DNA of 64,000 bases from Rivularia sp. PCC 7116 (GTDB taxonomy: Bacteria; Cyanobacteriota; Cyanobacteriia; Cyanobacteriales; Nostocaceae). A program made the position numbers and the translations under genes. The DNA is taken from NCBI RefSeq assembly GCF_000316665.1, contig NC_019678.1, forward strand, positions 7,163,001 through 7,227,000, given 5' to 3'. Of the stretch, positions 35,824 to 39,115 are shown in pieces (the first letter of the stretch is position 1; every line of letters starts with the position of its first letter). The notes under the pieces were generated by a model. The model worked only from the letters and a program-made list of their open reading frames with translations, did not search any database and was not told the origin of the DNA.

Positions 35824-35978
35824 AGTATGTTTGGAAAGTCTCAGACAATACCATAAATCTTCAGATACCCCTCAATTCACCGCTAAATTGGGGGACTTCA
35901 ACCCCCCCTTTTTAAGGGGGGAAGGGGGGATAATCTAGCTATTGGGATAAAAACTATACTTTTTAAACATTCTCTTAG
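35817..35978. mobile_element. MITE-like element, family 1 (copy B)
   Basis: Begins CTCTAAGAGTATGTTTGG, sharing its end with copy A, and closes with AAACATTCTCTTAG. It contains a long palindrome around cccccctttttaagggggg. No coding capacity; probably mobilised by a transposase elsewhere. Confidence 0.6.
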
Positions 35979-37570: not shown

Positions 37571-38476
37571 CTAATTCATCAGTAAATTAACTAACTTCTC
37601 TGTAATCGGAAAACCAGTCTGACGTTCAAAATGTACGAACATTGGACTGGGATTAGCTTCTAAAAAGACATACTCGCCATTTGGTTTAACGCGCCAATCA
37701 ATAGCCGTCCACTTTAGCATAAATGCCTTGGCGATCGCTAAAGATTGTTTTTGAATCGATTCTGGCAATTCTATCGGAATTAACTCAGCATCCAAGTCTT
37801 CTCGAAAGTCTACAGATGAACTACGAATTTCGGCAGAATAAACCGAATCTGCAATTACGTAACTACGAATATTTGTGCCGGGAATATATTCTTGTATCGT
37901 CACAGGAGAAAGGCTCAAAGTTATATTTAGTCGCTGCGGCTCCAAATGAGCCTCTGTAATAAATTGGGTATGGGCACCACCGTAAACAGGTTTAAAAATG
38001 GCTTTTTTATAAGTTTGACAAAACTCTATAACTTGCTTGGGATTATTACTAATCAAAGTTGCAGGAATTGCAGTTCCTATTTGTTTTGCCTTACTTAGTT
38101 GTAAAGGTTTTTCTTTATGAAACTGGAATGCTTCCCAGGAATTAACCCATTTTGCTGGGCAAGCTTGCATAAACGTTCTCAATGTACTCATGGAATCGTT
38201 ATATGCTAATTTCTTTTGATAGGAATCTTTAAACTCGGGAATATAAACACCAGAAAAATTACGCCAATATACGCTATGAATATCTTGGATGTTTAATTCT
38301 TCTCCTGTCGGTAAAGTTAAATATCCTAACTGCTTCTGTGGCTGCCAAGATATCCCTAGCTGCTTAGGAAATAAGCTCGTATCTAAATAATTGACTGTCG
38401 CACCTGCTTGGGTAAGAGTATTGTAAATATGAGCTGCATGAGCATCCTTAGCATTACCCAAAATTAAAATATTCAT
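37571..38476 (-). CDS. ATP-grasp ligase, candidate peptide (graspetide-type) maturase
   Basis: 301 residues of the RimK/MvdD-like ATP-grasp fold. The N-terminal domain (MNILILGNAKDAHAAHIYNT...) has the VYWRN segment. The ATP-grasp core includes KPVYGGAH, QEYIPGTNIRSYVI, DWRVKPNG and the metal-binding EANPSPMF near 280. Enzymes of this group form ester or amide cross-links between side chains of a ribosomal peptide, as in microviridins. The inference here comes from the fold and from the small precursor-like gene upstream on the same strand (348 bp away). A MITE-like element fills about half of that gap. No transporter or protease gene is adjacent. A RimK-like role on another protein remains possible. 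Confidence 0.75.
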   Translation of the reverse strand: MNILILGNAKDAHAAHIYNTLTQAGATVNYLDTSLFPKQLGISWQPQKQLGYLTLPTGEELNIQDIHSVYWRNFSGVYIPEFKDSYQKKLAYNDSMSTLRTFMQACPAKWVNSWEAFQFHKEKPLQLSKAKQIGTAIPATLISNNPKQVIEFCQTYKKAIFKPVYGGAHTQFITEAHLEPQRLNITLSLSPVTIQEYIPGTNIRSYVIADSVYSAEIRSSSVDFREDLDAELIPIELPESIQKQSLAIAKAFMLKWTAIDWRVKPNGEYVFLEANPSPMFVHFERQTGFPITEKLVNLLMN

Positions 38477-38824
38477 TTAATTAATAAACATTTAAAAATA
38501 AAAAATATTAGATTTATTTTGCAAATAAACACCTCCGAAAAAGAATATACAAGCCTTCAGATGAAATTGATATATCATTTCCGGAGAAGTTAAATGAAGC
38601 CGAGTTCAGAATAAGTCAATGCCTTGGGTAAATTCTTAGCAATTTCATCTTAGAGGATGTTTGGCAAGTCATAAATAAAACTCGTAAATCTTAAGAACCC
38701 CCCAAATCCACGCCACTTACTACAACGGAGGGAACCTCCGCAACGTAGTGGCTCCCCTTTTTAAGGCGGAAGGGGGGATCTCAGCAATAAGCACGTTAAG
38801 AACGATACTTTTCCGCCCATCCTC
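38477..38824. other. Gap between precursor and ATP-grasp gene, with a MITE-like element
   Basis: 348 bp, of which about 180 bp (38649-38828) are a family 1 MITE-like element. The remaining 170 bp next to the ATP-grasp start are AT-rich and contain a GGAGGTG sequence 50 bp before its ATG. Without the element the two genes would be about 170 bp apart. Confidence 0.65.
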
Positions 38825-38828
38825 TTAG
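38649..38828. mobile_element. MITE-like element, family 1 (copy C) at the precursor 3' end
   Basis: Begins CTTAGAGGATGTTTGG and ends CCATCCTCTTAG, with an internal palindrome region (cccctttttaaggcgg) like copies A and B. Its right end overlaps the stop codon of the peptide precursor (38825-38827). TCTAAGA occurs at both ends on the minus strand and may include a target duplication. Confidence 0.65.
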
Positions 38829-39115
38829 ATAAAATAGCAACCACCCTCTTCACCCAATGCCAGAGTTGTATATACTGGAGGCTTTGGTTTTACAGGTTCG
38901 CAGGGATAAGGTTTGGGTTTTGGCAGGGGTAACGGATAAATACAGGGCTCGGGGTAAGGTAGGCAGAAATCACCACTTTCTTTGTCTATTTTAGTGTAAA
39001 TACTAAGACCTCCAGCACACTTTTCTGATTCCTCTTCTCCTACTTCTTCGAGCAAATCTTGTCCAGATAGTTGAGATTCTAAGTCAGCGATTTCCAGCGC
39101 AAATGGGTGTTTCAT
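38825..39115 (-). CDS. Candidate ribosomal peptide precursor (graspetide-like, two-module core)
   Basis: 96 residues. The first 36 look like a leader: KHPFALEIADLESQL, an acidic stretch (EEVGEEESE) and a double-glycine end (C33-A-G35-G36). The remainder has two 13-residue modules, each beginning [I/V]-Tyr-Thr and ending in Cys (39-51 and 81-93). Between them is a spacer (52-80) with 13 prolines and Cys58 and Cys72. Module 2 contains TTLALGEEGG, with Thr and Glu placed as in graspetide cores. The ATP-grasp gene lies downstream on the same strand. Established: ATP-grasp enzymes join Thr/Ser/Lys to Asp/Glu in such cores. Inferred: that this is the substrate. The stop codon overlaps a MITE-like end. 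Confidence 0.7.
   Translation of the reverse strand: MKHPFALEIADLESQLSGQDLLEEVGEEESEKCAGGLSIYTKIDKESGDFCLPYPEPCIYPLPLPKPKPYPCEPVKPKPPVYTTLALGEEGGCYFI

Follow-up and report, generated by a model that had tools for sequence, protein, structure and literature searches.

An open reading frame pair in Rivularia sp. PCC 7116 that probably encodes a plesiocin-like graspetide and its ligase

The genome of Rivularia sp. PCC 7116 contains, within the 64,000-nt stretch analysed here (termed the window), an open reading frame of 96 amino acids followed by one of 301 amino acids with similarity to ATP-grasp ligases. The original prediction, which paired the two by position, was that they form a graspetide precursor and its ligase, and that the product may be of a new kind, with two cysteine-ended modules joined by a polyproline rod and possibly with two rings and added disulfides. 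The question is whether this pair encodes a graspetide, of which kind, and how much of the precursor core can be cross-linked. The features of the locus are the following.

37571..38476, minus strand: 301-aa predicted graspetide ligase, a peptide macrocyclase of the ATP-grasp type; PF21068, PF08443; fold match to MdnC/PsnB
38477..38824, minus strand: intergenic gap of 348 bp, precursor to ligase, with a strong predicted RNA fold
38825..39115, minus strand: predicted graspetide precursor, 96-aa open reading frame; homologues have the same leader and core unit
38837..38875, minus strand: module 2, residues 81–93 (VYTTLALGEEGGC), canonical unit
38840–38869, minus strand: TTLALGEEGG, residues 83–92 of module 2
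38876..38962, minus strand: proline-rich spacer, residues 52–80, with 13 Pro and 2 Cys
38963..39001, minus strand: module 1, residues 39–51 (IYTKIDKESGDFC), degenerate core unit retaining T41 and E46
39008..39115, minus strand: leader, residues 1–36, with M.HPF.L start, acidic stretch and Gly-Gly at 35–36

Both open reading frames are present as originally described, and a script confirms the positions of the two modules and the Gly-Gly, as well as the composition of the spacer. The open reading frame list gives the order precursor, gap, ligase on the minus strand, with a single ligase gene at the locus. The fold energy of the gap has a z value of −4.85 relative to 100 shuffles, and a simple scan of the gap found no terminator-like site. 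The gap also has an element, CCCCCTT...CCTTAAAAAGGGG, at 38754–38777 on the minus strand; a second copy with 2–3 mismatches (35905–35929) is located upstream of a HisS-like gene. This element gave 0 matches in 100 shuffles, the pattern having been derived from the gap copy. The neighbours of the gene pair, named by eye, are the HisS-like gene and a carbonic-anhydrase-like gene; they display no evident link to peptide export, and no transporter was recognised among the open reading frames listed around the pair.

The precursor sequence was searched against 388 genomes of the order, sampled evenly from a larger group (E ≤ 0.01). This yielded 21 matches. Seventeen, the window's own included, are true by inspection, i.e. 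they have the M.HPF leader and a core unit, and four (L023–L026) are false. The precursor displays 35%–57% aa identity across the 16 other genomes, and leader, double Gly and core unit are retained in all of them. M1, H3, P4, F5, L7, G35 and G36 are invariant in the 17 aligned precursors, and T83, T84, E89, E90, G91 and G92 are conserved at 90% or more. Given this conservation in 16 other genomes, the 96-aa open reading frame is judged to be a real gene.

An intact ligase adjoins the precursor in 14 of the 17 precursor genomes. Homologues of the small protein without an intact ligase, a possible objection to the pairing, are confined to the other three, where the ligase is broken, a remnant or cut by a contig end. 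In G277 (L011) the ligase has an in-frame stop, and in G302 (L027) a contig end truncates it. G178 has two precursors: one (L016) adjoins only a short ligase remnant, and the other (L028) is near a contig end, on a stretch without a ligase. The ligases of L011/L037 (Microcoleus sp. FACHB-61) and L016 look broken next to intact precursors, and this may represent decay or sequencing error.

When GTDB species genomes were scanned with a profile of 14 ligase relatives (termed A1), 75 ligase loci were detected, of which 70 bear a cyanobacterial record title. A precursor was called where the leader profile matched at E < 0.05 or where an open reading frame contained TT....EEGG. By these criteria it is present in 61 of the 75 loci, 56 with the canonical unit and five with the leader only (L043, L047, L048, L055, L095). 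Precursor and ligase are on the same strand in 59 of the 61, and the gap between them is at most 700 bp in 57 (median 172 bp, measured on stop-to-stop frames with seven overlaps counted as zero). Five of the 75 loci end early at contig ends, and nine that are not cut short upstream have no precursor by the same criteria. Three of the nine are in Moorena, where HPFELAL- or LFELAL-like open reading frames are decayed or frameshifted; L101 consists of the C-terminal half of a ligase only, and L103 (Neobacillus) has a distant ligase. L042, L061, L065 and L091 are without such an explanation. The family ligases of L042, L061 and L091 adjoin another open reading frame, which we take to be PpiC/SurA-like, and L042 also has an open reading frame with RTX-like repeats.

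At E ≤ 1e-60, 34 of the 217 genomes from the family to which the window belongs have the ligase, and among the eight genomes of the same genus in this set only the window's own has it. Thus the locus is patchy. Two other ligase matches are present in the same genome, about 2.9 Mb from the locus.

The description of the 301-aa protein as an MvdD/RimK-like ATP-grasp agrees with Pfam, where PF21068 (MvdD pre-ATP-grasp) and PF08443 (RimK domain) exceed the cut-off. In NCBIfam the ligase scores best with the ribosomal peptide maturase model TIGR04187 (ATP-grasp), at 162.3 bits and below the 350-bit cut-off; MvdD (119.6 bits) and MvdC (110.8 bits) are likewise below the cut-offs of the MvdC/MvdD equivalogs (425 and 475). 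When the A1 profile was compared with PDB chains, PsnB scored best (133 bits), with MdnC at 124 bits and RimK chains at about 33 bits. An AlphaFold2 model built from a 46-row alignment (A3) has a mean pLDDT of 93.4. Foldseek places MdnC (E = 9.5e-27) and PsnB (1.2e-26) level with each other, then PruB and AMdnB, with RimK at about 1e-16. The ligase and PsnB show an identity of 26%–27%. D260, R262, E273 and N275 are invariant in the 46-sequence alignment; presumably they are near the ATP-grasp active site. In a 50-row tree the window ligase joins two Calothrix ligases (support 100/99), and a split with 100/100 support separates the family, together with PsnB, from MdnC and the own-genome pair; the branch of PsnB is very long and its placement weak. 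The ligase is, as judged from sequence and model, nearer to the peptide macrocyclases MdnC and PsnB than to RimK.

The core motif of plesiocin (group 2) is TT....EE, i.e. two adjacent threonines and two adjacent glutamates. The core unit of the present family is TT.A.GEEGG, usually repeated, in a broad and mostly cyanobacterial family, and we take it to match this motif. The proposal of a new kind of graspetide is not supported, since the unit recurs across this broad family and agrees with the group 2 motif. Polyproline spacers and cysteines after Gly-Gly are also found in relatives.

In the window precursor, TT....EE is present once in complete form, at residues 83–90, and module 2 is on this alignment the single canonical core unit. 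When the two modules are aligned without gaps, the only common residues are Tyr, Thr and Cys. Two [IV]YT-x9-Cys windows occurred in 1 of 100,000 shuffles of residues 37–96, with a pattern that was picked post hoc. A register anchored on GG/GD aligns TT....EE of module 2 with YT....ES of module 1, so that Tyr and Ser occupy the positions of a second Thr and a second Glu. Module 1 thus appears as a degenerate unit in which a donor and an acceptor are missing, and the two-module description holds fully for module 2 only. Among relatives, the canonical module is conserved and the first module only loosely so. The slot right after the double Gly contains full units in L010 (YTTQAVGEEGGD) and L041 (FTSEAFGEEGGC), and YTDALHENGD in L040.

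Core units were compared in 68 distinct precursor strings (some fragments were kept, and strings with N-runs were removed). The windows counted are 10-mers ending in GG or GD, leftmost per run, from about residue 27; donors are Thr/Ser at positions 1–2 and acceptors are Glu/Asp at positions 7–8. Both donors and both acceptors are present in 197 of 304 anchored windows, and the remainder include leader GG sites and C-terminal-domain stretches of Okeania proteins. Module 1 falls in the class with one donor and one acceptor. The 24 distinct windows of this class comprise 14 with T2-E1 (spacing 5), three with T1-E2 (spacing 7), five with T1-E1 and two with T2-E2. A nested pair is therefore retained in 17 of the 24, and seven are non-nested (one-sided binomial 0.032). 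The count is 16 of 23 when the window's own module is left out, and 20 of 27 (binomial 0.0096) when three GGG-run windows, with the register shifted by one, are added. It should be noted that a single CISAPC unit, spelled in two ways, accounts for two of the three outer-pair windows, that the third, TKARHGFEGG, is of doubtful register, and that the T1-E1 windows TKARFFESGG and SKGWFFESGG resemble inner-pair units with one extra residue. As the windows share descent, the count is suggestive only; within this limit, the retention of nested pairs agrees with the ring-within-ring hairpin given for plesiocin in an excerpt of PMC13097080.

Other variants are also seen. Units of the type CISAPCPGSEGG or SETGG recur beside canonical units, e.g. 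in L013, L015, L031, L080, L092 and L102. The SEGG form of CISAPCPGSEGG keeps the outer donor/acceptor pair and has two cysteines, so that the inner ester might be replaced by a disulfide here. In L043, L044, L047, L048 and L055 (Rhizonema, Scytonema, Brasilonema) the loops from the Thr pair to the Glu pair are enlarged, e.g. TTYAITARFGEVGEEGG, implying larger predicted rings.

Cysteines of the window precursor are at positions 33, 51, 58, 72 and 93 by script. Its 13 prolines in 29 aa tie with L009/L059 as the maximum among the 68 strings, and eight of the strings have at least 10 Pro in a 29-aa stretch. A cysteine within three residues after GG is found in 18 of 201 canonical units; eight of the 18 are from the window, L008/L029, L040 and L041. 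With cores delimited by a simple rule in a script, the number of core cysteines is odd in 21 strings and even in 15, and 32 strings have none. The proline rod and the Cys endings, as far as can be read from the sequences, recur among relatives. Odd counts outnumber even ones, so that the disulfides are unsupported; with no Cys pairing pattern in the family, the disulfide idea was dropped.

Three other readings of the locus can be set against a plesiocin-like graspetide. The enzyme could be a RimK-like amino acid ligase, or have some other substrate, with the small open reading frame a chance neighbour. The RimK-type ATP-grasp domain in Pfam and the nine ligase loci in which no precursor was recognised agree with this, but the pairing is conserved over 61 loci, the N-terminal domain is of the MvdD type, and profile scores and fold ranks, on which a RimK-like ligase was rejected, group the enzyme with MdnC/PsnB and away from non-peptide ligases. 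This reading is exceedingly improbable. A precursor with its cognate ligase, as first proposed, is now indicated beyond position alone, by pairing in 61 of 75 loci and by the peptide-macrocyclase fold. It is also very unlikely that both modules are fully cross-linked into a two-hairpin product with disulfides among four core cysteines. The mature region does have four Cys, and a Cys follows GG within three residues in every canonical unit of the window, L008/L029 and L041. However, only a single Thr and a single Glu are found at the unit positions of module 1, which makes two family-type esters there impossible, and neither the frequency of cysteines after GG nor the odd and even counts given above favour such pairing.

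The remaining alternative, with a chance somewhat below even, is that module 1 is unmodified, a decayed core or a linker, and that the product is a single C-terminal bicyclic hairpin. The absence of one donor and one acceptor agrees with this, as does the likewise irregular module-1 slot, YTIEGKEEGDGC, in Calothrix rhizosoleniae (L008/L029), a nearest relative. In addition, a register anchored on Cys instead of GD puts T41 at the first Thr position, so that its partner is unclear and its homology uncertain. Against this, other precursors repeatedly contain half-units in which Thr and Glu have the same spacing of 5 (YTKAWFECGG, YTDALHENGD, ITSFNKEQGD), and this recurrence suggests retention and not decay. 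Since module 1 keeps a single Thr and a single Glu at the predicted inner-ring spacing, at most one ester is expected there, and the spacing favours a T41-E46 ring.

The preferred reading is that the gene pair makes a plesiocin-like (group 2) graspetide; this is very probable from sequence and fold model, the plesiocin precursor being compared by its core motif only. The analysis itself shows that the two genes are paired across genomes, that the ligase has a predicted macrocyclase fold, that the core unit is repeated in the family, and that a double Gly in the precursor and C39 peptidase genes in the genome are present. In the proposed mechanism, the ligase would dock on the precursor leader via the M.HPF.L motif, and ATP-driven activation of Glu side chains would lead to esters with Thr hydroxyls. 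Module 2 would acquire nested esters, T83-E90 (outer) and T84-E89 (inner), to form a hairpin, and module 1 would acquire one ester at most, T41-E46 being the likeliest. As there is one ligase gene at the locus, we infer that a single enzyme makes all the cross-links. A C39-type double-glycine peptidase encoded elsewhere in the genome would then cleave after Gly36, and the peptide would be exported, with a probable role as a serine-protease inhibitor. The double Gly would suit a C39 peptidase. The C39 peptidase domain exceeds the cut-off at 10 places in the genome, seven of them above 120 bits; no C39 match is inside the 64-kb window. According to an excerpt of PMC13039773, about half of the graspetide clusters predicted there have double-Gly motifs, and cleavage at the double Gly has been demonstrated for one C39 transporter of a graspetide.

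The predicted peptide is very probably ring-locked, with one complete and one worn-down module and a proline-rich spacer between them. The family alignment yields exact predictions: two dehydrations, i.e. two waters, are expected with good confidence at T83, T84, E89 and E90 of module 2, and a possible third, with about an even chance, at T41/E46 of module 1. A more general and doubtful proposal is that the family has a grammar of complete units with two rings (TT....EE), units with the inner ring only (.T....E., as in module 1) and CISAPCPGSEGG units with the outer ring only, where a Cys pair may replace the inner ester, all mixed on proline-rich spacers within single precursors. If this were true, the window peptide would consist of a bicyclic and a monocyclic hairpin spaced by a polyproline rod. 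The family alignment suggests half-units as a regular device to vary ring number.

The Okeania precursors (L066, L068, L070, L071, L073, L074; e.g. L073:3987–5258) are long, 405–488 aa with 7–11 core units. They have an HPF-type leader without a double Gly, and an added C-terminal domain. Residues 101–186 of the 198-aa piece of L070 are 41% identical (E = 5e-6) to an own-genome open reading frame with RTX-like repeats; such similarity was found at two places, of which one was inspected and its repeats judged by eye. No Pfam family exceeds the cut-off for the Okeania tail, and BLAST gave no convincing similarity between it and the RTX-containing open reading frame of L042 (E = 0.43). In the Okeania fusions, a type I secretion protein possibly serves as carrier for the graspetide cores. 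In the literature searched, graspetides and RTX occur together in one paper.

Two further loci of the Rivularia genome may be mentioned. Positions 4297251–4299173 (G000:C1; L006, L007) contain a pair of neighbouring ATP-grasps, placed with MdnC in the tree, and a C39 peptidase match is at 4290469, about 6 kb away; this is probably a second graspetide-type locus. At G000:C1:242554–243167 and adjoining (L002, L004) there are three tandem double-Gly open reading frames of 95–100 aa. Their C-termini are proline-rich (HPRLPVHPKEPVHPRQP and similar), unlike graspetide cores, and they are perhaps another peptide family.

Comparisons with annotated families and the literature gave the following. In Pfam the precursor has no match, and in NCBIfam its best match, the plantaricin C model, is below threshold (12.8 bits vs 29). 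None of seven small precursor relatives exceeds an NCBIfam cut-off, the best by E-value being the same model (L086, 16.9 bits vs 29). A PDB sequence search with the precursor and its alignment found no match, and when a relative with five units was used as query, the 12 matches (E = 0.026 at best) included no graspetide protein. Literature searches found nothing linking TTxxxxEE with ATP-grasp, although group surveys were outside the search and absence from print is not implied; graspetide with proline-rich returned microviridin only, graspetide with Calothrix returned nothing, and GEEGG strings gave no graspetide title among the matches listed.

Microviridins (MdnA/B/C, MvdC/D) resemble the window system in their leader-dependent ATP-grasp macrocyclases, and the fold of MdnC is as close as that of PsnB. 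They differ in having two ligases, a caged core, a TxKxPSD motif and a PFFARFL leader motif (PMC7823629, PMC8939145, in excerpt); neither motif is in the window precursor, and the locus has one ligase only.

Gra-5 of Glaciecola sp. KUL10 is a group 2 graspetide with one macrocycle and one dehydration, said in the excerpted text of PMC9576775 to be without one donor/acceptor set; it also appears there to be modified inefficiently. Aliiglaciecola relatives (L097, L098) with TTMAIGEEGG cores belong to the ligase family of the window. The source of Gra-5 is in the Pseudomonadota, in contrast to the window, and it is likened to the latter by this partial description only; as an analogy, Gra-5 is a possible precedent for the half-unit.

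The closest likeness is to plesiocin (PsnA/PsnB), a ring-within-ring hairpin peptide with repeated motifs that inhibits serine proteases (PMC13097080, in excerpt), with two esters per repeat (PMC12291112, in excerpt). Both systems have a single ATP-grasp ligase and a precursor with leader and core units, and PsnB is the top-scoring PDB chain for the ligase profile. The class feature of graspetides, an MvdD/RimK-type ATP-grasp ligase adjoining the precursor, is present. The difference is in the core: plesiocin has four repeat units (PMC12291112, same excerpt), whereas the window precursor has one regular and one degenerate unit and a Pro/Cys spacer. What was a guess from position is now placed in a definite, testable class, plesiocin-like graspetides made by one ligase. 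The locus is ordinary in kind, and the interest lies in the idea of half-units and in the fusions seen in Okeania; from the sequence comparisons, the pair probably belongs to the known plesiocin-like graspetides, of which the locus itself would be a new member.
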